Below are positions 12,521 to 60,975 of a DNA stretch of 64,000 nucleotides, in pieces. Source of the stretch: an uncultured Ramlibacter sp. GTDB taxonomy: Bacteria > Pseudomonadota > Gammaproteobacteria > Burkholderiales > Burkholderiaceae_C. Under the pieces are notes generated by a model, which saw only the letters and a program-made list of their open reading frames with translations, made no database searches and was not told where the DNA came from. The stretch is from positions 62,001 through 126,000 of the forward strand of contig NZ_CAKZHQ010000051.1 in the NCBI RefSeq assembly GCF_936925435.1. Reading direction: 5' to 3'. Position 1 is the first letter of the stretch; each line of letters opens with the position of its first letter. The translations under genes and the position numbers were made by a program.

Positions 12521-14107
12521 CTAGCTTGCCAGGGTCTTGGGCTTGCGGACGAAGCGGATCGGCTGCTCCTTGACGGGGCGGGCCGGCGCGCCATGGGCCA
12601 GCAGTGTCGCATCCAGCGCGCGGCCGGCGTCGTCGGCCAAGGCAGCGGAACGCGCGGCTGCCACGGCCTGGGCCGCGGCTTGGGCGTCGGCGCCCAGGGC
12701 CAGGTGGTCCAGCACGTGCAGCAGGTTGTCCTTGCCGCGCTCGTTGGTCGCGCCATAGCCCTTGATCAGGCGGCCGCATAGGGCGATCTCGTGGCCCAGT
12801 TGCCAGTCGCGGCGGGTTCCCTGCACCACGCCGGCCAGCCATTTGCCGATCATGGCCTGCTCGTTGGCGTAGCGGCTGCCCCGCACGCGCAGCCACTTGA
12901 GCGAGGCCAGGCTGCGCAGGGCCAGCATGCCAAAGACCGAATGCGTGCCGATCTTCAGCGGCAGGGCCCAGGGCGTCTTGCCTGCCAACACGCGAGCGCG
13001 GTCCCAGGCCAGCACCTTGTTGGCCAGACCTACGGGCAGCAGGGCGGCGAACTCCGGCGCGCCCGGCTTGAAGTGGTCATAGACCTGCAGCAGGTCGTCC
13101 TCGCCGGCCTTGACCTCGCCGCTCACCCGCTGCCAGCGCGTGGCGCGGCTCTTGAGGTCGGCCACCCGCACGATGTCGTCGAAGGCCATCCACAGGGCCA
13201 GCCAGCGCGCTATCTCGGTGGTGGTGGCAAAGCCCTGGGCACCGGCCGGGTCGGCGGCGCGTTCGGCCGCCAGCACCTGTTGCAGGCGCTCGAGGTACAG
13301 GCGGGCATATGCCGGGCCCTGGTAGTCCAGCATGCGGGCATGGCCCAGCGCCAGCATGGCGTGCACCTGCGGCGGGAACATTGCAGCGATATCGGCCTCC
13401 AGCCCCCGTTGAATGGGCGCAACATGCTCCTCATTCGATAGCAGATCGCCGACGAAGGCGGCCTGGATGCGGGGCTGGCTGACGATGTCGTAGGCCCGCG
13501 CGAAGCCGCGCAGGCTGGCCTGCGCCATGCGCCCACCGTCGCCGCGCACCACCGCCTCGTAGTCGGTGCGGCTGAAGGGGAACAGGCCGCTGCCGGCCAC
13601 CGCACCCAGCATCACGGCGCTGACGATGGTGCCGGCCTCCTTGGCCACCGCACCCATGTCGAACACGTGGTGCTCGCGGCTGAAGCGCCGCACCACGGCC
13701 AGCAGCTCGGCGCTGTCGGCGCGGCCGTCGCCCAGCTGCATGCGCTCCTGGGTGGTGAGGGTGCGGCCCGACGAGGTGATGACGGCCGTGCGGTCCGGCG
13801 CGCTCATGCCGTTGCCGATCTGGCGCGTGGTCTCCAGCAGCTCGGACGAGACGATGGCGTCGAGCGCGCCGGGCACGGGGTTCAGGCTGAACACCGGCTT
13901 GCGCCCGCCCAGCTGCGCCACCGGCACCGGGAAGACCTCGATGTAGTAAGTGGTGGCGCCGGTGCGCTGGGCCACGCCTGGGATGGAGGTGCTCTGGGCC
14001 GCATAGCCGGCGTGGCGCGCGGTCTCGATCAGCCATTCGGTCAGCACGCCGCCGCCTTCGCCGCCGAGGGCGCAGATCAGGAGGCTGGTGGGTCTTGCGT
14101 CGGTCAT
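12521..14107 (-). CDS. iorB: Indolepyruvate oxidoreductase subunit beta, long form
   Basis: The 528-residue protein has the gamma-type 2-oxoacid:ferredoxin oxidoreductase domain at about 8-200 (LLICALGGEGGGVLTEWLIE, SIPGVAQRTGATTYYIEV) and a helical C-terminal extension (DUF6537-like, about 240-515) found in proteobacterial IorB. With IorA it decarboxylates indole-, phenyl- or hydroxyphenyl-pyruvate to aryl-acetyl-CoA. It lies 13 nt after iorA in the same operon. Residues about 221-243 (DLLSNEEHV to RGLEADIA) coincide with a copy of the dispersed 57-bp repeat described under findings. Confidence 0.9.
   Translation of the reverse strand: MTDARPTSLLICALGGEGGGVLTEWLIETARHAGYAAQSTSIPGVAQRTGATTYYIEVFPVPVAQLGGRKPVFSLNPVPGALDAIVSSELLETTRQIGNGMSAPDRTAVITSSGRTLTTQERMQLGDGRADSAELLAVVRRFSREHHVFDMGAVAKEAGTIVSAVMLGAVAGSGLFPFSRTDYEAVVRGDGGRMAQASLRGFARAYDIVSQPRIQAAFVGDLLSNEEHVAPIQRGLEADIAAMFPPQVHAMLALGHARMLDYQGPAYARLYLERLQQVLAAERAADPAGAQGFATTTEIARWLALWMAFDDIVRVADLKSRATRWQRVSGEVKAGEDDLLQVYDHFKPGAPEFAALLPVGLANKVLAWDRARVLAGKTPWALPLKIGTHSVFGMLALRSLASLKWLRVRGSRYANEQAMIGKWLAGVVQGTRRDWQLGHEIALCGRLIKGYGATNERGKDNLLHVLDHLALGADAQAAAQAVAAARSAALADDAGRALDATLLAHGAPARPVKEQPIRFVRKPKTLAS
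13386..13450 (-). repeat. Copy of the 57-bp dispersed repeat inside iorB
   Basis: On the minus strand GATCTGCTATCGAA is followed, exactly 44 nt after the C of CTATC, by GGCCGATATCGC. The same two ends with the same 44-nt spacing occur in xdhA, in the kinase-like gene and in the intergenic copy near 55.9 kb. It is read in frame as DLLS to GLEADIA. Confidence 0.6.
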
Positions 14108-21697: not shown

Positions 21698-24090
21698 CGC
21701 CCGTTCAAGGCCCGCAGCAGGTTCTCCGCCGTTGCCGGCGCTTGCAGCTTCACCTGTTCCTTCGAAGCCTTCACAGAGCCCACGGCTTCACGCAGCGCTT
21801 CCCACACCGCGATGCCCAGCATGAAGGGCGGCTCGCCCACGGCCTTGCTGCCGCCCACGTTGTCCTCGCGGTTGGCCTCGGGCCAGAGATCGACCTTGAA
21901 GTGGGCCGGGATGTCGCCCGTGGCCGGGATCTTGTAGGTGCTGGGCGCGTGGGTGCTCAGATAGCCCTTGTCGTTCCACACCAGCTGCTCGGTGGTCAGC
22001 CAGCCCATGCCTTGCACGAAGCCGCCCTCGATCTGGCCGATGTCCAGCGCCGGGTTGATGCTGGTGCCCACGTCATGCAGGATGTCGACCTTGAGCACGC
22101 GGCTCTCGCCTGTCAGGGTGTCGATCACCACCTCGCAGCAGGCTGCGCCGTAGGCAAAGTAGTAGAAGGGCCGGCCCGTGAGCGTCACCTTGTCGTAATG
22201 GATCTTGGGCGTGCGGTAGAAGCCGTCGCTCCACAGCTGGATGCGGTTGGCGTAAGCCGCTTTCACCACCTCGTCGAAAGAGCGCGTGGACTTGGGGCTG
22301 AGCACACTCCCGCCACGGAACTCGATGGCACCCGCGCCGCAGCCGTCCAGGCCGGCGACGAAGGCCGCCAGGTTGTCGCGCACATTGCGCGCCGCGTACT
22401 GGGCGGCGCGGCCGTTCAGGTCGGTGCCGCTCGACGCCGCCGTGGCCGAGGCGTTGGGCACCTTGCTGGTGTCGGCCGCTGTGGAGCGCACCCGCTCGAA
22501 GGGCACGCCCAGTTCGTCGGCGACGATCTGCGCCACCTTGGTGTTCAGGCCCTGGCCCATCTCGGTGCCGCCGTGGTTGACCTGCACGCTGCCGTCGGTG
22601 TAGACATGGACCAGGGCGCCGGCCTGGTTGAAGAAGGTGGCGGTGAAGCTGATGCCGAACTTGACCGGCGTGATGGCGATGCCGCGCTTGAGCACCGGGC
22701 TGCTCTTGTTCCATGCCGAAATGGCCGCACGCCGGGACCGGTAGGACGCAGTCTGCTCCAGTTTCGATAGCAGGGGCGCGAGGATGTTGTCCTCCACCTT
22801 CATCTGGTAGTGGGTGACATTGCGCTCCTCGATGCCATAGAGGTTGCGCATGCGCACATCGAAGGGATCGAGTCCGAGCTGGCGCGCGATGTCGCCCAGG
22901 ATGGCCTCGATCACGATCACGCCCTGCGGCCCGCCGAAGCCGCGGAAAGCCGTGTGGCTCTGGGTGTTGGTCTTGCAGCGGTGCGAGACGATCTCCACGT
23001 CGCTCAGGTAGTAGGCGTTGTCGACATGGAAGATGGCGCGGTCGGCCACCGGACCCGAGAGGTCGGCCGAGAAGCCGCAGTTGGCCAGCATGGTCAGCTT
23101 CAGGGCTGTCAGCAGGCCCGTGCCGTCGAAGCCGGCTTGGTAGTCGTAGGCAAAGGGATGGCGCTTGCCAGTGACCATGAAGTCGTCGTCGCGGTCCAGC
23201 CGCAGCTTGACCGGGCGCTTGAACTTGCGTGCCGCCAGCGCGGCCCACACGGCCAGGTGGCCGGCTTGCGTTTCCTTGCCGCCGAAGCCACCGCCCATGC
23301 GCCGGCATTCCACCGTCACCGCGTTGTTCTCCAGGCCCAGGGCATGGGCCACCCAGTGCTGGATCTCGCCCGGGTGCTGGGTGCTGGAATAGATCCACCA
23401 CTGGTCCTGCTCCAGCGGCAGGGCATAGGCCACCTGGCCTTCCAGGTAGAAGTGCTCCTGGCCGCCGACCTCGAGCTGGCCGCTGAGGGTGTGCTGCGAC
23501 GTTGCCATTGCCGCCTCGGGCTCGCCGCGCCGCACGGTCACGGCCGGCAGCACATAGCTTTTCTGGGCGTGGGCCTCGCGCGGCGACAGCACCGGCGGCA
23601 GCGGCTCGATCTTGAGCTGCACCTTGCGCGCCGCGCGGCGCGCTTGCATCACAGTGTCGGCCAGCACCAGGCCGACGACCTGGCCGATGTGTTCGACCTT
23701 GTCGATGGCGAAGATGGCTTCGTCGTGGACGAAGGTGGCCAGCAGCTTGTCGCCCGGGATGTCGGCGCTGAGCACCACGCCGCGCACGCCGGCCAGGGCC
23801 AGGGCGGCGCTGGCGTCCACGCCCAGCAGGCGGCCATGGGCGACGGTGGACAGGATGGGCGCCGCATGCAGCGTGCCCTTGACCTCGGGGATGTCGTCGA
23901 CATAGGTGGCGCTGCCCGCCACCTGGGCGCGCGCGCTCTCGTGCGGGCGCGACACGCCCGAGGCCGGGCCGGGCGCGGCCGGCGCATGGGGCGAAAGGGT
24001 GGCCGGCGCGATGTTGCGCTCGCCGGCGGCGGCCGGTCCACCGGGCCCGCCACCGTCTTGCGCGCTGAACTCCTTGTTGCGCGTGTTCAT
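21694..24090 (-). CDS. xdhB: Xanthine dehydrogenase, molybdopterin-binding subunit
   Basis: The 798-residue large subunit oxidises hypoxanthine and xanthine to urate in the cytosol. It has the aldehyde oxidase/xanthine dehydrogenase a/b hammerhead near residues 45-150 and the Moco domain after it. Motifs include GGFGGKETQAGHLAVWAALA, AFRGFGGPQGV, GGTEMGQGLNTKVAQ and the active-site GSKAVGEPPFMLG, whose Glu is catalytic. It overlaps xdhA by 4 bp (ATGA). No xdhC (Moco insertion) gene follows, although that is usual in this operon. Residues about 440-460 (LLSKLEQTASYRSRRAAISA) may contain a decayed copy of the dispersed repeat. Confidence 0.95.
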   Translation of the reverse strand: MNTRNKEFSAQDGGGPGGPAAAGERNIAPATLSPHAPAAPGPASGVSRPHESARAQVAGSATYVDDIPEVKGTLHAAPILSTVAHGRLLGVDASAALALAGVRGVVLSADIPGDKLLATFVHDEAIFAIDKVEHIGQVVGLVLADTVMQARRAARKVQLKIEPLPPVLSPREAHAQKSYVLPAVTVRRGEPEAAMATSQHTLSGQLEVGGQEHFYLEGQVAYALPLEQDQWWIYSSTQHPGEIQHWVAHALGLENNAVTVECRRMGGGFGGKETQAGHLAVWAALAARKFKRPVKLRLDRDDDFMVTGKRHPFAYDYQAGFDGTGLLTALKLTMLANCGFSADLSGPVADRAIFHVDNAYYLSDVEIVSHRCKTNTQSHTAFRGFGGPQGVIVIEAILGDIARQLGLDPFDVRMRNLYGIEERNVTHYQMKVEDNILAPLLSKLEQTASYRSRRAAISAWNKSSPVLKRGIAITPVKFGISFTATFFNQAGALVHVYTDGSVQVNHGGTEMGQGLNTKVAQIVADELGVPFERVRSTAADTSKVPNASATAASSGTDLNGRAAQYAARNVRDNLAAFVAGLDGCGAGAIEFRGGSVLSPKSTRSFDEVVKAAYANRIQLWSDGFYRTPKIHYDKVTLTGRPFYYFAYGAACCEVVIDTLTGESRVLKVDILHDVGTSINPALDIGQIEGGFVQGMGWLTTEQLVWNDKGYLSTHAPSTYKIPATGDIPAHFKVDLWPEANREDNVGGSKAVGEPPFMLGIAVWEALREAVGSVKASKEQVKLQAPATAENLLRALNGR
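22715..22775 (-). repeat. Possible decayed copy of the 57-bp repeat inside xdhB
   Basis: The minus strand reads CTGCTATCGAAA and, 44 nt after CTATC, GGCCATTTCGGC. Spacing and frame match the other copies, but the 3' end is only partly conserved and native XdhB sequence is similar here, so it may be a coincidence. Confidence 0.3.
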
Positions 24091-25649
24091 GCCGCTTCCT
24101 CCACCAGGGCAAAGGATTCGAGGTTGATGTTGGCCATGCCCTGGCTCTCCAGCCAGAAGCGCTGCAGCAGGCCGCCCAGTACCTCGCTGCGGTAGGCGGC
24201 CGAGGCGCGCATGTCGCTGATCGGCTGGAACTCGGCGCGCAGCACCTGGGTGGCTTCGCGCACCGTGGCGTCCGTCCAGGCCTTGCCGGCCAGGAAAGCT
24301 TCAGTCTGCAAGGCGCGCACCGGCGTGGCCGCGACGCCGCCTGCGCCGATGCTCACTTGCGTCACACGCTCCCCATCCCGCCGCAAATTCAGCACCAGGC
24401 AGACGGCCGAGATGTCGTCGTCGTAGCGCTTGCTGATCTTGTAGGCCCGCAGGAACTCACCCGTTGCGGGCCGCGGCACCACGGTCCAGGCCAGCACCTC
24501 GTCGGGGGCCAGCCGGTTCTTGCGGTAGCCGGTGTAGAAATCTTCCAGCGCCATGCGGCGGTGGCCGCGTTCGCTCATGAGGATGACTTGGGCGCCCAGG
24601 GCGATCAGCAAGGGCATGGAGTCGCCGATCGGCGAACCGTTGGCGATGTTGCCGCCCAGGGTGCCGGAGTTGCGTACCGGCAGGCCGGCAAAGCGATTGG
24701 CAAAGCTCTTGAGCTGGGGCCGGTCCGCCACCAGGGCGGCAAAGGCCTCGGTCAGCGTCACGGCGGCGCCGATGGCGATGTGGTTCTCATAGCGTTCGAT
24801 GCGGCGCAGCTCCTTGGCCCGGGTGACGTCCAGCAGCTGCGGAAACTGCATGTGCAGCTTGGTCACCCACAGGCCCACGTCGGTGCAGCCGGCCACGATC
24901 TGGGCCTGCGGATGCTGGGCGCGGGCCGCCAGCAGGCCGGCCAGGCTGGTGGGCGCCAGATAGGCTGTTTTTGTTGCCAAATCGGCCTGTAGCCCCCGGC
25001 TTTGCAGCTTGAGTCGCTTCAATTTTGATAGCAAATCGGCTTCGTCCACCGCCACCCTTGGCAGCCGCGCCATCTGCTGGGCGGCGTCCAGGATGGGCCG
25101 GTAGCCGGTGCAGCGGCACAGATTGCCCGAGAGTTCTTCCTGCGCCAGTTCGCGCGTGATCGGATTGCGCCCGCAGACGTCGAGCGCCGACGGGCCGCCC
25201 CTAGGCGCGAGGGCCCCCTCGGGGGGCAGCGAGGTACACGCAGTGCCGAGCGTGGGGGCAATGTAGTTTTGGTACATGCCGAACAGGCTCATGACGAAGC
25301 CCGGCGTGCAAAAGCCGCATTGCGAGCCATGGCACTGGACCATGGCCTCTTGTGCCGGGTGCAGGCTGCCGTCCCCGGCCGCCAGGTCTTCCACCGTCCA
25401 CAAGGCCATTCCGTCGATGGAATGGGCCAGGCGGATGCAGCTGTTGATGGCACGGTACTTGATGCTGTTGCCTTCGGCCTCCCCCAGAACAACAGTGCAG
25501 GCCCCGCAGTCCCCCTCGCCGCAGCCTTCCTTGGTGCCGCACTCGCCCAGGTCCTCCCGCAGCAGCTCCAGCAGCGTGCGCTCGGGTGGTACATTGCCCA
25601 GCGAGACAAGCTCGCCACGGCGGAAAAATCGGATCGTTTGCTTGTCCAT
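24087..25649 (-). CDS. xdhA: Xanthine dehydrogenase small subunit (FeS and FAD)
   Basis: The 520-residue subunit has a plant-type [2Fe-2S] domain (CGTKEGCGEGDCGACTVVLG), a second [2Fe-2S] helical domain (CHGSQCGFCTPGF and CRCTGYRPI), the FAD-binding domain (about 230-400, with IVAGCTDVGLW and RNSGTLGGNIANGSPIGDS) and a CO-dehydrogenase flavoprotein C-terminal domain. It carries electrons from the Moco subunit to NAD. ATG 25649 gives the normal MDKQTIRFF start. Two additions are unusual: about 27 residues at 131-157 (LPPEGALAPRGGPSALD) inside the helical FeS domain, and a linker at 205-224 (DLLSKLKRL to RGLQADL). Both are encoded by dispersed repeats. It is divergent from a LysR gene. Confidence 0.95.
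   Translation of the reverse strand: MDKQTIRFFRRGELVSLGNVPPERTLLELLREDLGECGTKEGCGEGDCGACTVVLGEAEGNSIKYRAINSCIRLAHSIDGMALWTVEDLAAGDGSLHPAQEAMVQCHGSQCGFCTPGFVMSLFGMYQNYIAPTLGTACTSLPPEGALAPRGGPSALDVCGRNPITRELAQEELSGNLCRCTGYRPILDAAQQMARLPRVAVDEADLLSKLKRLKLQSRGLQADLATKTAYLAPTSLAGLLAARAQHPQAQIVAGCTDVGLWVTKLHMQFPQLLDVTRAKELRRIERYENHIAIGAAVTLTEAFAALVADRPQLKSFANRFAGLPVRNSGTLGGNIANGSPIGDSMPLLIALGAQVILMSERGHRRMALEDFYTGYRKNRLAPDEVLAWTVVPRPATGEFLRAYKISKRYDDDISAVCLVLNLRRDGERVTQVSIGAGGVAATPVRALQTEAFLAGKAWTDATVREATQVLRAEFQPISDMRASAAYRSEVLGGLLQRFWLESQGMANINLESFALVEEAA
24975..25040 (-). repeat. 57-bp dispersed repeat forming the FeS-FAD linker of XdhA
   Basis: The minus strand reads GATTTGCTATCAAAATTGAA, then GGGGGCTACAGGCCGATTTG, with 44 nt between the C of CTATC and GGCCGAT. 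This is the best-preserved copy in a gene and resembles an intergenic repeat I recall as common in Comamonadaceae. It is translated in frame as DLLSKLKRL to GLQADLA. Confidence 0.75.
25181..25261 (-). repeat. GC-rich ~80-bp dispersed repeat inserted in the XdhA FeS domain
   Basis: The minus strand carries CCCCACGCTCGGCACTGCGT, then CTGCCCCCCGAGGGGGCCCT and AGGGGCGGCCCGTCGGCGCT, with the internal palindrome CCCCCGAGGGGG. I recall very similar sequences as abundant intergenic repeats in Comamonadaceae. Here its length keeps the frame open and adds about 27 residues to XdhA between CGFC and CRC. Confidence 0.7.
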
Positions 25650-48663: not shown

Positions 48664-50373
48664 CTAGTACTCCGCGCCTTCCACCAGGAAGCGCACGCGC
48701 CGCACACCCTGCCATTCGTCGGCGTCCAGCCGGAAGGCCAGCAGCACCTTGGGCGGCAGCGGGTCGGTGTGGCTGAACCAGATGCCGTCCACCGCCTGGC
48801 CCTGGTGCTTGAGCTTCAAGGCCAGGTGCTTCTCACCCACCAGACGCTGCGACACCACTTCCACTTCCTCGCTGAACACCGGTGGTGCAAAGCCCTGGCC
48901 CCAGACCTCGTGGTGCAGCGTGTCCACCAGGTCGACCCGGCGGTACTCCGGCGCCAGCGGGCCGTCGGTGTGCAGGCGGCGCAGCAGCGTCTCGTGGTCC
49001 AGCCATTCCTGCGCCACCTGGTCCAGCGCCTGCTCGAAGGTGTCGAGCTGGTCCTCGGCGATGGTGCAGCCGGCCGCCATGGCATGGCCGCCAAAGCGCA
49101 GCAGCACGCCGGGATGGCGTTTCGCCACCAGGTCCAGCGCATCGCGCAGGTGAAAGCCGGGGATGGAGCGGCCCGAGCCTTTCAGCTCGTGTTCCTTGCC
49201 GTCGGCCTGGCTGGCGGCAAAGACAAAGGTTGGGCGGTGCAGCTTGTCCTTGATGCGCGAGGCCACGATGCCGACCACGCCCTCATGGAAGTCGGGATCG
49301 AACACGCAGATCGCCGCCGGCGGTACCTCGCCCTCGTCGAACATGGCCTCGGCCACCAGCATGGCCTGCTCGCGCATGCCGCCCTCGATGTCGCGCCGCT
49401 CGCGGTTGATGGCGTCCAGCGAGCGCGCCAGTTCGTCGCCGCGCGCGGCGTCATCGGTCAGCAGGCATTCGATGCCCAGTGTCATGTCGGCCAGCCGGCC
49501 GGCGGCATTGATGCGCGGGCCCAGGGCAAAGCCGAAGTCGAAGGTGGTGGCCGCCTGCGGCTTGCGCATGGCGGCGCCAAACAGGCTGGCCAGACCGCAG
49601 GGCAGCTGGCCGGCGCGGATGCGCTTGAGGCCTTGCGCCACCAGGCGGCGGTTGTTGGCGTCGAGCTTGACCACGTCGGCCACCGTGCCCAGGGCCACCA
49701 GCGGCAGCAGGGCATCGAGCTTGGGCTGATTCTGGGCGTCGAACACACCACGCGCGCGCAACTCGGCGCGCAGCGCCAGCAGCACATAGAACATCACGCC
49801 CACGCCGGCGATGGACTTGCTCTCGAAATCGCAGCCTGGCTGGTTGGGATTGACGATCACCGCAGCGTCCGGCAGCTGCGCTCCGGGCAGGTGGTGGTCG
49901 GTCACCAGCACCTGCAGGCCCAGGGCATTGGCCATGGCCACGCCCTCGACGCTGGCGATGCCGTTGTCCACGGTGATCAGCAGGTCCGCGCCGCTGTCCT
50001 TGACGCGTTTGGCGATCGGCGCGGTCAGACCGTAGCCGTCCACCACCCGGTCGGGGACGATGTAGCTGACATGCTGCGCGCCCAGCAGGCGCAGGCCGCG
50101 CATGCCCACGGCGCAGGCGGTGGCGCCGTCGCAGTCGTAGTCGGCCACGATGCACATGCGCCGGTTTTGCGCGATGGCATCGGCCAGCAGCACGGCCGCT
50201 TGCTGCACGCCCTTGAGGCCCGAGGGCGGCAGCAGGCGCGCCAGGCCGTCATCGAGTTCGTCCTTGCCCAGCACGCCGCGGGCGGCGTACAGGCGGGCCA
50301 GCAGCGGGTGCACGCCGGCCTGTTCCAGTGCCCAGGCGGCCCGGGGTGGGATGTCTCTTGCTACGATTTTCAT
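48664..50373 (-). CDS. recJ: Single-stranded-DNA-specific exonuclease RecJ
   Basis: The 569-residue 5'-3' ssDNA exonuclease acts in RecF-pathway recombination and mismatch repair. DHH-family motifs are VADYDCDGATA (about 77-87), LITVDNGIAS and VTDHHLPG, then the DHHA1 domain with LRFGGHAMAAGCTI (about 430-443) and a C-terminal OB fold. The start at 50373 gives MKIVARDIPPRAAWALEQAG. It overlaps the upstream gene by 4 bp (ATGA). The first codons (CTATGAAAATCGTAGC) look like the 5' end of the dispersed repeat. Confidence 0.96.
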   Translation of the reverse strand: MKIVARDIPPRAAWALEQAGVHPLLARLYAARGVLGKDELDDGLARLLPPSGLKGVQQAAVLLADAIAQNRRMCIVADYDCDGATACAVGMRGLRLLGAQHVSYIVPDRVVDGYGLTAPIAKRVKDSGADLLITVDNGIASVEGVAMANALGLQVLVTDHHLPGAQLPDAAVIVNPNQPGCDFESKSIAGVGVMFYVLLALRAELRARGVFDAQNQPKLDALLPLVALGTVADVVKLDANNRRLVAQGLKRIRAGQLPCGLASLFGAAMRKPQAATTFDFGFALGPRINAAGRLADMTLGIECLLTDDAARGDELARSLDAINRERRDIEGGMREQAMLVAEAMFDEGEVPPAAICVFDPDFHEGVVGIVASRIKDKLHRPTFVFAASQADGKEHELKGSGRSIPGFHLRDALDLVAKRHPGVLLRFGGHAMAAGCTIAEDQLDTFEQALDQVAQEWLDHETLLRRLHTDGPLAPEYRRVDLVDTLHHEVWGQGFAPPVFSEEVEVVSQRLVGEKHLALKLKHQGQAVDGIWFSHTDPLPPKVLLAFRLDADEWQGVRRVRFLVEGAEY

Positions 50374-51317
50374 AGCTGTTCCAGTCCATTCCACGGGGGA
50401 TTGAGGCCGATTCCCCTCTGAATTCGGGGCCAGAGACCGGTCGGGGCTGGTGCCAGCGTCTGGGCGGCACGCGGGCCGCAGAGTGTGAGTTTGGCGTCGC
50501 CGCCGGCGCGCAGCACGGCCAGCAGGGCGGCGCAGGCATCCGCGTCCACCTGGGCCCAGGCAGCGGCGTGGGCGGCGGCATCGCCGCGCAGCGCGGGCGA
50601 TGCCAGGCGCGATTCAACGCGCACATGGGGCGCGGGTGTGAAGGGCTGCTCCAGCATGCCGGCGCCACCGACCCAGAAGGAGTTGACCGGCAGCAGGCCA
50701 CGGCGTTGCCGTTCTTCGGTCAGCGGGTGGGTGTAGAGCAGCATTTGCATCTCGTTTTGCAGTCGGCGCAGCGTGGCGGCTGCCGCGCCGCCGGTGTCGA
50801 TCAAGGTGGGGGTCAGGCGCCGGGTGCTGGCGCGTTCCATCGCCAGGGTGGGCAGGCCGCGAAACAGCTCGCCCGTGGCCAGCCAGGTGCCGGCCATGCC
50901 GGGCCGGGGGCGCAGCGCGATGCCGTCTTCCAGGAAGTAGGGCGCCATCGCCGCCAGCAGGGTCTGCTCGTCGGCCTCGTCCAGTGCCAGCTCCTGGGCC
51001 GGCACCAGGGCCACGTGGTCGGCGCCCACGCGCCAGTGGCACAGCCTGACCCAGGCGCAGGGCGTGCCCACCGTACCCGTTTCCACCGCCGCCCAGGGGA
51101 TGCGGCCGTCTTCCGATGGCAGGCCCAGGGCCTGGGCTGTGGCGATCTCGCTGGGCTCGGACAGGCTGTCCTCATCGGCCTCGGTGCGGCCGGCCGTCGC
51201 CATGCCGGCCAGCAGGGCGCGCAGATTGGGGGGCAGCGGGGAGGGCGCGGCAGCGCTGTCGCCGCCATCGGGGGCCAGCACGGCACCCGGAACGATCAAA
51301 TGGAGCTTGTCCGACAT
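50370..51317 (-). CDS. Conserved protein encoded upstream of recJ, function unknown
   Basis: The 315-residue cytosolic protein begins MSDKLHLIVPGAVLAPDGGD and contains PWAAVETGTVGTPCAWVRLC, RRLQNEMQMLLYTHPLTEER and GLLPVNSFWVGGAGMLEQPF. It resembles a Burkholderiales family that I recall as sometimes labelled phosphoglycerate mutase (COG4255-like), but I see no phosphoserine-type active site. Overlap with recJ by 4 bp indicates co-translation, so a link to DNA repair or cofactor handling is possible, not shown. Confidence 0.7.
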   Translation of the reverse strand: MSDKLHLIVPGAVLAPDGGDSAAAPSPLPPNLRALLAGMATAGRTEADEDSLSEPSEIATAQALGLPSEDGRIPWAAVETGTVGTPCAWVRLCHWRVGADHVALVPAQELALDEADEQTLLAAMAPYFLEDGIALRPRPGMAGTWLATGELFRGLPTLAMERASTRRLTPTLIDTGGAAAATLRRLQNEMQMLLYTHPLTEERQRRGLLPVNSFWVGGAGMLEQPFTPAPHVRVESRLASPALRGDAAAHAAAWAQVDADACAALLAVLRAGGDAKLTLCGPRAAQTLAPAPTGLWPRIQRGIGLNPPWNGLEQL

Positions 51318-55888: not shown

Positions 55889-55945
55889 GCGAAATCAGCC
55901 GCTACCTCCCGTCAAATGGCCCTGAGGCGCTCTTTTTTTGATAGC
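55889..55945 (-). repeat. 57-bp dispersed repeat, intergenic copy
   Basis: The minus strand reads GCTATCAAAAAAAGAGCGCC and ends in GGCTGATTTCGC, with 44 nt from CTATC to GGCTGAT, exactly as in the copies inside iorB, xdhA and the kinase-like gene. It lies 3 bp beyond the stop codon of the cupin gene. Confidence 0.75.
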
Positions 55946-59200: not shown

Positions 59201-60199
59201 ATGGTTTCCGCCGCCGCCATCACGCAACAGGGCCCGCAGCAGCGCCGTGCCATCGCCAAGGCGATCACGCTGCTCGAATCCACCCGCGCCGACCACAGGG
59301 CGCAGGCGGACGCATTGCTGGCCGAGCTGCTGCCGCACACCGGCAAGGCCTTGCGCCTGGGCATCTCGGGTGTTCCCGGTGTTGGCAAGTCGACCTTCAT
59401 TGAAGCCTTCGGCCTGTTCCTCATCGCCCAGGGCCAGCGCGTGGCGGTGCTGACCATCGACCCCTCGTCCACCGTCTCCGGCGGCTCCATCCTGGGCGAC
59501 AAGACCCGCATGGAGCTGCTCTCAGTGCACGACCAGGCCTATATCCGGCCCAGCCCCTCCAGCGGAACGCTGGGCGGCGTGGCCGAGAAGACGCGGGAAG
59601 CGATGCTGGTCTGCGAGGCCGCGGGCTACGACACCGTCATCGTCGAAACCGTGGGTGTCGGCCAGTCGGAAACCGCCGTGGCCGGCATGACCGACATGTT
59701 CGTGCTGATGCAGCTGCCCAATGCCGGCGACGACCTGCAGGCCATCAAGAAGGGCGTGATGGAGCTGGCCGACCTGGTCGCCATCAACAAGGCCGACCTG
59801 GATGTGGACGCCGCCACCCGGGCCCAGGCCCAGATCACCAGCGCGCTGCGCCTGTTCAGCCAGCATGGCCATGGTGCGGCTGTGGCAGGCGAGGTCTGGC
59901 ATGCGCAGGTGCTGCAATTGAGCGCGCTCAAGGCCGAGGGCATTGCCGCCTTCTGGGCCGCCGTCACGCGCTACCGGCAGCTGCAGGGCGCCAACGGCCT
60001 GCTGGCCCACAGGCGCCGCCAGCAGGCCCTGGCCTGGATGTGGGAACGCATCGACGCGGGCCTGAAGCAGGCCTTCCGCGGCGACCCGCAGGTGCGCGAG
60101 CTCTTGCCGGCCCTGCAGCAGCGCGTGGCCGCCGGCGATGCTGTGCCCTCGGCGGCGGCGCGCCAGCTGCTGGACCTGGTGCTGCGGAGCCGTCCATGA
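59201..60199 (+). CDS. meaB: Methylmalonyl-CoA mutase-associated GTPase MeaB
   Basis: The 332-residue G3E-type GTPase protects and reloads the mutase with adenosylcobalamin. Motifs are P-loop GVPGVGKST (57-65), TIDPSSTVSGGSILGDKTRM, VETVGVGQSE (Walker B region) and NKAD (base recognition). It starts 5 bp after the scpA stop. The next gene overlaps its stop by 4 bp (ATGA). Confidence 0.96.
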   Translation: MVSAAAITQQGPQQRRAIAKAITLLESTRADHRAQADALLAELLPHTGKALRLGISGVPGVGKSTFIEAFGLFLIAQGQRVAVLTIDPSSTVSGGSILGDKTRMELLSVHDQAYIRPSPSSGTLGGVAEKTREAMLVCEAAGYDTVIVETVGVGQSETAVAGMTDMFVLMQLPNAGDDLQAIKKGVMELADLVAINKADLDVDAATRAQAQITSALRLFSQHGHGAAVAGEVWHAQVLQLSALKAEGIAAFWAAVTRYRQLQGANGLLAHRRRQQALAWMWERIDAGLKQAFRGDPQVRELLPALQQRVAAGDAVPSAAARQLLDLVLRSRP

Positions 60200-60975
60200 A
60201 GGCGCAGGACATTGAGCGCATCCGCGCCTCGCAGGGCTGGCGGTGCGACCGCGTCGAAATCTTCGAGACCGGCGAGGGCCCGGTCATCGCCAAGGGCCAG
60301 CGGGCGCCGCACAGCAACCTGGGCTACGCCGCGCTCAATGCCATGGCCAGGCTGAGCGGCTCGCGCCTGTTGCAGGCCGTGCCCATGCACGGCGGCGCCG
60401 CCTCGCAGCAAGTGGAGCTGCGCCGCCTGGCCGCGTTGCACGCTGCCGGCGTGTCGGTGCCCGAGGTGCTGCACGCCGAGACTGAGTTCTTCGTCATGGA
60501 GCTGGTGCCGGGCCGCAACCTGGCCCAGTGGCTGGCCGGCCGCCCCGCCAACGGCCTGGCGCTGTGGCAGCAGGGGCTGGAGGCCATCGCCCGGACCCAC
60601 GCGTGCGGCCAGTACCTGAGCCAGGCCCATGCCCGCAACTTCATCGTCACGCCCCAAGGCCCGGTGGCCATCGACTTCGAGGACGACCCGCTGGAAGTGA
60701 TGACGCTGGCCGAGGCCCAGGCCCACGACTGGCTGGTCTACCTCTTGTCCACCCTCTGGCTGCTGCCTGAGGCCCATCCCCGCCTGCTATCGATCTGGGA
60801 GCAATTCGTGCCCGTCACATGCGGCTTGCAGGCCGATCTGCTTCTCAAAACCGCGCGCAGACTGGGCTGGATGCGGCACCTGCCGCGCGAGCGCAAGCCC
60901 TGGGGCCGCGATGTCATCAGCGCCCAGGCAGCCGCTTCCTTCCTCTACGACTGGGCGCAGCCGCGCCCGCACTGA
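60196..60975 (+). CDS. Kinase-fold protein of unknown substrate, coupled to meaB
   Basis: The 259-residue protein has a compact protein-kinase-like layout: Lys33 in VIAKGQRAP, Glu74 in a helix, hinge-like FFVMELVPGRNL (98-109), catalytic-loop-like HARN (145-148) and IDFE (159-162) in place of the DFG motif. It resembles lipopolysaccharide-kinase or RIO-type small-molecule kinases. It overlaps meaB by 4 bp and precedes pccB by 18 bp. Residues 197-215 (LLSIWEQF to GLQADL) match the dispersed repeat. No function is known; a role in the propionyl-CoA operon is only suggested by position. Confidence 0.7.
   Translation: MKAQDIERIRASQGWRCDRVEIFETGEGPVIAKGQRAPHSNLGYAALNAMARLSGSRLLQAVPMHGGAASQQVELRRLAALHAAGVSVPEVLHAETEFFVMELVPGRNLAQWLAGRPANGLALWQQGLEAIARTHACGQYLSQAHARNFIVTPQGPVAIDFEDDPLEVMTLAEAQAHDWLVYLLSTLWLLPEAHPRLLSIWEQFVPVTCGLQADLLLKTARRLGWMRHLPRERKPWGRDVISAQAAASFLYDWAQPRPH
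60783..60845 (+). repeat. 57-bp dispersed repeat inside the kinase-like gene
   Basis: CCTGCTATCGATCTGGGAGC is followed, 44 nt after the C of CTATC, by GGCCGATCTGCT. Spacing and frame (LLS to GLQADL) equal those of the xdhA and iorB copies. Confidence 0.55.

Follow-up and report, generated by a model that had tools for sequence, protein, structure and literature searches.

The window analysed here, 64 kb of contig NZ_CAKZHQ010000051.1 from an uncultured Ramlibacter sp., carries an xdhA gene in which part of the coding sequence is also a copy of a dispersed DNA repeat, found in the same window both between and inside other genes. How does such a repeat come to form part of an enzyme? It may have been inserted in frame and then tolerated, or it may have been written into coding sequence that was already there. 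We follow this question through the copies in the window, the genomes that carry the repeat, and the orthologous genes of relatives that lack it.

Copies in the window

The initial annotation had noticed two ends at a fixed spacing in xdhA, and the same ends at four further places in the window. Both observations are borne out. In xdhA, on the minus strand, CTATC through the end of GGCCGATTTG is 54 nt, and this and all the other places were scored by a position matrix that we retrained on 48 copies, all from outside the window. The xdhA copy (24978-25031, minus strand; 63.9 bits) encodes the linker between the [2Fe-2S] and FAD domains; Pfam domains flank the 54-nt core on both sides, and likeness to the repeat extends beyond the core to approximately 24966. 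The others are a copy in a POR/DUF6537 gene first labelled iorB (13388-13441, minus; 57.1 bits), one in a kinase-like gene at 60196-60975 for which no Pfam family was found at E<=1e-5 (60787-60840, plus; 51.1 bits), an intergenic copy (55891-55944, minus; 61.8 bits) and a weak copy in xdhB (22717-22770, minus; 20.2 bits). The highest-scoring copy in the window (50361-50414, plus; 65.5 bits), absent from the initial annotation, falls where two minus-strand genes meet, which our ORF caller, a custom hexamer model, places at 48664-50373 and 50370-51317.

This makes six copies, five of them strong (51-66 bits) and the sixth weak (20 bits), where the maximum in 20 triplet-shuffled windows was -3.1 bits and that in the reversed window -13.2. 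Our first sequence model, R1, built on 21 copies, had found the five places of the initial annotation (with 48.7 bits for xdhA) and one 5.6-bit match, and its output also lacks the copy at 50361-50414. At the weak xdhB site a second genome that carries the repeat (G151) reaches 15.2 bits over these codons, and 27 orthologues from non-carriers score -79 to -6.5. The dispersed repeat is real, and forms one family of sites of approximately 54-66 nt.

Abundance and range

The bare pattern CTATC N36-54 GGCCGATTTG has three matches in the whole genome of the window (G000, 4.49 Mb), each of 54 nt, and none in the reversed control. Across 120 genomes of the same family, it has 76 matches in 30 genomes (the window's own included), of which 60 have exactly the 54-nt length though 19 lengths were allowed; the reversed control gave none in any genome. 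Two further carriers were sampled as evenly spaced 400 kb of each chromosome. G072 has 81 places (202 per Mb), found in 19 of 20 stretches and merged from 169 raw sites since its palindromes score on both strands, and G099 has 48 places (120 per Mb) in 18 of 20 stretches, with none in the reversed control for either. If the samples are typical, these extrapolate to ~680 copies in the G072 chromosome and ~540 in that of G099; six per 64-kb window extrapolates to ~400 copies in the window's own genome.

Within the window's genus, matches at E<=0.001 under strict filters occur in 9 of 59 genomes: 58 in G000, 59 in G151, one to three in each of seven others, and none in the remaining 50. G000 and G151 are treated as the carriers of this genus and the remaining genomes as non-carriers. 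A sample of the class comprised 369 genomes, for each of which 13 candidates were scored under strict filters; two genomes have a match at E<=1e-5, and both are of family f1. An exact, longer pattern finds 113 stretches in named genomes; the genera titled among the 80 of these 113 matches listed are Polaromonas, Ottowia, Acidovorax, Rhodoferax, Ramlibacter, Xenophilus, Giesbergeria, Curvibacter and Oryzisolibacter, all of which we take to belong to Comamonadaceae. The repeat family is patchily distributed within one bacterial family. We found no description of the motif in the portions of the open-licence literature consulted.

Mobile replicons were searched with queries from three dialects of the motif, using BLAST settings that in a positive control recovered only 28%, 19% and 0% of known copies (23 of 81 in G072 and 9 of 48 in G099 with the matching dialect, none across dialects). 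Four of 72,556 plasmid records were matched by the G072-like query and none by the two other dialects; with the same insensitive settings, none of 50,697 phage records was matched by any of the three. Given so low a recovery, we have withdrawn scarcity in plasmids and phages as support for any reading, and have slightly lowered our confidence in the uptake reading proposed below. One copy-like stretch on the enterobacterial plasmid NZ_KY913898.1 (L331:1501-1560) is 78% identical to the query and overlaps a small 'DUF1010' reading frame within an array of class 1 integron cassettes; it may point to a cassette of carrier-chromosome origin.

Anatomy of the motif

The consensus of columns 1-64 in G000 is yGCTAtcrattt.atAGC..ctca.GcccatT..aCGgGGGCTagAGGCCGATTt..ct...aa. 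By eye, it comprises three palindromic blocks: GCTAT..ATAGC, a central inverted repeat, and a GGCC-AT-rich-GGCT end. Each of the three genomes G000, G072 and G099 has a separate consensus, or dialect, and the central inverted repeat varies accordingly, being GCGCTTG/CAAGCGC in G072, GCCCA/TGGGC in G099 and CCC/GGG in G000. The AT tract of G000 takes either polarity (column 9, A 63 and T 33 percent; column 10, A 43 and T 52 percent). Information content is 58-59 bits in G099 and G000, spread over most of columns 2-65; the G072 matrix, at 44.9 bits, mixes both strands of its palindromes and is not comparable with these. The mean GC content of sites is 0.45-0.53, against 0.64-0.69 for the genomes.

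Within one genome, the palindrome arms do not covary, no Watson-Crick covariation was found among the top column pairs, and no consensus RNA fold was obtained for the repeat; for these reasons we do not take it for an RNA. The window yields no Rfam match apart from an FMN riboswitch. That riboswitch (RF00050, 93 bits) lies at 786-943 on the plus strand.

Placement, strand and frame

Copies are concentrated between genes. In G072, 64 are intergenic, 2 partial and 15 coding, in sampled DNA of which our ORF caller makes 89% coding; in G099 the numbers are 34, 1 and 13, in DNA called 87% coding. The intergenic share of 71-79% in these two samples means that copies are under-represented in coding sequence and, with the counts in family genomes, agrees with an early surmise that this was an abundant intergenic Comamonadaceae repeat. 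The coding share among G000 copies, which were picked by high score, is a biased estimate.

Gaps of at least 60 nt between genes were classed by the orientation of their neighbours, counting occupied gaps in place of copies per gap. In G072 a copy is held by 13 of 24 convergent, 34 of 118 tandem and 4 of 46 divergent gaps (convergent versus divergent, p=6e-5). This way of counting leaves G099 weaker, with 10 of 30, 16 of 120 and 6 of 44, respectively (p=0.08). Copies in tandem gaps have no preferred orientation (20/22 in G072, 9/7 in G099), and those in genes lie on both strands (6 same and 9 opposite in G072, 3 and 10 in G099).

The taste for convergent gaps, and the hairpin-like palindromes present in each dialect, would suit an RNA element of transcript 3' ends, a terminator or stabiliser, that spills into genes. 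We nevertheless hold this very unlikely, given the indifference of tandem-gap copies to the transcribed strand, the gene copies on both strands, and the lack of covariation within a genome, of a consensus fold and of any Rfam match save the FMN riboswitch.

Placed by frame, 49 coding copies from the three genomes (excluding three that duplicate copies of the window and three secondary hits) fall as 13, 7 and 0 in forward frames 0, 1 and 2 and as 2, 21 and 6 in the corresponding reverse frames, with 29 of 49 on the opposite strand. The initial annotation had remarked on one frame shared by all gene copies. This is true of its four gene copies and fails genome-wide, where 13 of 49 use that frame; a single coding frame is ruled out, five of the six frames being used on both strands. 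Read in forward frame 0, ATAGC would contribute a TAG stop codon, and all nine frame-0 coding copies of G000 have GAG or AAG in its place. At some gene ends the stop codon of the called gene (TAG, TGA or TAA) lies inside the motif (L037, L042, L057, L041, L045 and L105).

Genes bearing copies were named from Pfam and PDB matches. They include cinA-like, P450, selO, glutamate racemase, HI0933-like, metallo-beta-lactamase-fold and dapE-like M20 peptidase genes, together with mutS, purL, a class-IV aminotransferase, xdhA, xdhB, cobU, a GMC oxidoreductase and an NDH2-like gene. Such copies uphold the early view of a repeat that occurs within metabolic enzymes too, and is translated there. Copy-free 20-kb stretches are about as frequent as chance would give (one in G072 with 0.35 expected, two in G099 with 1.8 expected). 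These 3 of 40 stretches, represented by 20 proteins, hold metal-resistance, surface-polysaccharide and molybdopterin-oxidoreductase/FdhD genes, with zero counts near chance; 10 proteins chosen from four copy-rich stretches are mostly housekeeping.

Origin of the coding copies

If a copy had been inserted into a gene, orthologues from non-carriers should be shorter by approximately 18 amino acids. Segments of 18 proteins that bear the element were joined into a query, which located their orthologues in the carrier G151 and in six non-carriers. Seven gene-overlapping hits were kept out of this query (two linkers rich in proline, a signal peptide, three hits that were terminal or partial, and a secondary one), and xdhA was handled apart. 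Length differences were measured across the element and 10 aa on each side. Fourteen of the 19 submitted sites were counted, dropping duplicate rows and alignments that did not span the element plus 6 aa; the cinA-like, kinase-like, cobU, L053 and L062 sites fell out at this step.

For these 14 coding sites of G000, 87 comparisons with non-carriers, 55 of them involving xdhA or xdhB, give net differences from -9 to +2 aa; in 48 the difference is at most 2 aa, and none reaches -15. Five of six metallo-beta-lactamase pairs have no net gap, nor do MutS, xdhB, GMC and the aminotransferase, and the P450, SelO and MurI pairs have either none or one of -1 to -7 aa. Non-carriers are 1-9 aa shorter in PurL, DapE, HI0933-like, NDH2-like and 27 of 28 XdhA relatives, and the single comparison for iorB gives +2 aa. 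At the DNA level the element codons of G000 score 28-71 bits, with a matrix trained on these same copies among others, and their non-carrier orthologues -85 to +16.

Relatives without the repeat can even have the same residues, such as SelO LLQYSERL and P450 ALEADL (both in non-carrier G160) and XdhA LLxQLKRL, and their DNA at these residues does not resemble the repeat. The XdhA segment corresponds, in homologues of the genus, to a native variable linker of ~17-28 residues by our own count, with 26 in the window's protein. Elsewhere in this protein, an extra stretch (window 25176-25259, minus strand; residues ~149-176 of the 538-aa reading) is unaligned in most of the listed genus homologues; G138 and G160 do align through it.

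Alignment, by eye, with solved proteins from outside the family gives differences across the element of approximately +2 aa for SelO/YdiU, +1 for MutS, -3 for MurI, -5 for XDH, -8 for DapE (with another -4 aa just upstream of the element), -3 for D-aminotransferase and -7 for PurL. None of these seven alignments has an element-sized insertion, which leaves an old insertion common to the whole family unsupported. Since no element-sized insertion appears among orthologues or solved proteins, the comparisons indicate that the element was written into existing coding sequence by base substitution.

Rickettsia palindromic elements are repeats of similar size that are translated in metabolic genes, where they add residues that homologues lack. 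The initial annotation had seen the present repeat in that light, as a mobile element inserted in frame to become a protein linker and tolerated there, and the high copy number, the patchy distribution, the translated copies and one intergenic locus with an element-sized presence/absence (below) would accord with it. It had also named the finding that would speak for native sequence, and this is the one that the alignments give: homologues without the repeat have similar lengths at the same positions, and sometimes the same residues. Unlike Rickettsia palindromic elements as commonly described, the repeat brings no extra in-frame segment, and protein length barely changes. Insertion of that kind is ruled out at the coding sites compared by the absence of any insertion of at least 15 aa in the 87 comparisons, with which the seven proteins from outside the family concur, and as an account of the repeat as a whole we rate the mobile element as extremely improbable.

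Maintenance among related carriers

Five of the six coding sites aligned with the carrier G151 are shared with it. At these, G000 and G151 agree in 127 of 161 motif columns and 53 of 85 low-information columns (p=0.007); against non-carriers (xdhB left out of this comparison only) G000 agrees in 740 of 1663 motif columns and 488 of 914 low-information ones. The excess shows that something maintains the motif at sites common to related carriers.

Genus g73 (G072 and G177-G180) provides 119 flank-anchored comparisons, made two ways and so not independent. The relative holds an element of at least 17 bits at the same place in 90 of them (44 sites), with differing spellings; two score between 12 and 17 bits, and 27 (21 sites) score below 12. 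By length, 18 of these 27 differ by no more than 8 nt; four others lie between -15 and -42 nt, another four between -80 and -97, and the last is at +34. A single intergenic locus accounts for three of the -80 to -97 group: a unit of 80-87 nt is missing there in G178 and present in three relatives. The fourth is a difference of 97 nt. Between genes, the motif may be born or lost as a whole unit.

Across genera, copies occur at the same protein position in SelO (L004, L005 and L038), metallo-beta-lactamase-fold proteins (G000 and G072) and transporter-like proteins (L011 and L029), and near the gene start in two cinA-like genes (L003 and L010); the gene names of L004, L005, L010, L011 and L029 were assigned by eye.

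Sites conserved in g73 while dialects prevail genome-wide are what one would see in an old repeat family whose copies gene conversion has homogenised, with dialects arising through concerted evolution. This seems quite unlikely to us: it leaves the native-length copies in genes unexplained, and copies within a genome still differ from each other at many positions.

A candidate uptake signal

Origin in place within genes, dialects, strand indifference, scarcity in genes and the avoidance of divergent gaps in G072 match the properties of DNA uptake sequences, and on these grounds we propose that the sites may be a long recognition sequence in double-stranded DNA, accumulated by substitution, with biased uptake in natural transformation as the likeliest driver. 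We favour this proposal tentatively, at a confidence just short of even. DNA fragments with a better match would be taken up and recombined more often, and matches would accumulate where gene function tolerates them, at intergenic 3' ends first and later in flexible loops and helices of enzymes, in any fitting frame and strand. The site would be kept in register with a recognising factor that differs among lineages, presumably an uptake receptor, and drive rather than fitness would be what keeps the sites.

The uptake sequences of Pasteurellaceae (USS) arise by point mutation and are not inserted, may accumulate by molecular drive, and are under-represented both in coding sequence and in DNA newly acquired, according to the parts of PMC7811141 drawn on here; those of Neisseriaceae (DUS) come in dialects, with dyad-symmetric DUS pairs in Simonsiella, according to the corresponding parts of PMC3630211. 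To the extent that these sources cover them, both resemble the present motif in having hundreds to thousands of chromosomal copies, a substitution origin, dialects and coding under-representation, and USS also in their AT tracts (PMC3630211, PMC7811141). Unlike the DUS and USS core of ~9-12 bp, the motif extends over ~54-66 bp with several palindromic blocks, and belongs to another bacterial family. Its information content of 58-59 bits in two genomes is the main oddity beside known uptake sequences; drive can overshoot in this way. The intergenic locus of g73 at which G178 lacks a whole unit, and the comparison that differs by 97 nt, also count against the proposal.

The same observations bear on the main rival, namely that a chromosome-organising or regulatory protein binds the sites, each site being beneficial, kept by selection and co-evolving with the protein. 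Such sites would be expected to have palindromic blocks a conserved distance apart, to be indifferent to strand, to differ by dialect and to be maintained from G000 to G151. However, the information content far exceeds the ~14 bits that we estimate to be needed for a few hundred sites, and the sites lie in unrelated enzymes and are rare in the divergent gaps where promoters lie, so that tolerance fits better than function; we regard this rival as unlikely.

The uptake proposal would lead one to look at the competence gene ComEC, for which all 10 carriers and 13 of the 14 non-carriers have a match; as support this is weak, and in the window's genus ComEC does not split carriers from non-carriers. 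The sole case without a match among the 24 genomes is G177 of genus g73 (3.0 Mb in 840 contigs), which also has no sites in 46.2 kb, and its four congeners have both ComEC and the motif. We treat this joint absence as a hint only, because it is a single occurrence in a fragmented assembly and ComEC is present in 13 of 13 tested non-carriers of the window's genus.

Among tested bacteria, strong uptake sequence preference has been described for just two families, in the account given by the consulted portion of PMC7811141. A shade more doubtfully than the uptake proposal itself, Comamonadaceae might be a third family with a self-recognition sequence for uptake, in this case a palindromic one of ~60 bp with lineage dialects, gained or lost within genera and rewriting enzyme loops in place. 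If true, a third family with an unrelated, much longer motif would permit a comparative test of drive alone versus kin preference, for which gain or loss within a genus supplies natural before-and-after pairs. What the genomes offer at present is a candidate uptake-type signal, putatively spread by drive and several times longer than known ones. A signal acting at the DNA level can alter many proteins without insertions, which bears on how protein evolution is read in these bacteria.

Other dispersed repeats

REP/BIME and ERIC, located in intergenic DNA and at 3' ends, are palindromic repeats that are thought to spread as inserted copies. Their palindromes and placement are similar to those of the motif, but its origin in place within genes is the reverse of such spread. 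The BRE of Bordetella is, in the part of its description available to us, 75-91 bp long, 69% GC on average, often tandem and present in 1-29 copies per genome (PMC3110155). It shares with the motif, by that same partial description, being a dispersed chromosomal repeat in Comamonadaceae, mostly intergenic with some copies in genes (PMC3110155). The motif is set apart by its core of 54 nt, its 45-53% GC, its far higher copy number and the lack of a match beyond family f1 in the sample of the class; we reject an identity with BRE on the grounds of length, GC content and range, BRE being known here by description, in part, and not by alignment. A second dispersed repeat occurs in G072 (L118:2650-2775); it is GC-rich, ~95-125 bp long, has dozens of matches in G072 and its relatives, and fits the published BRE description, as far as that portion goes, better than the motif does.
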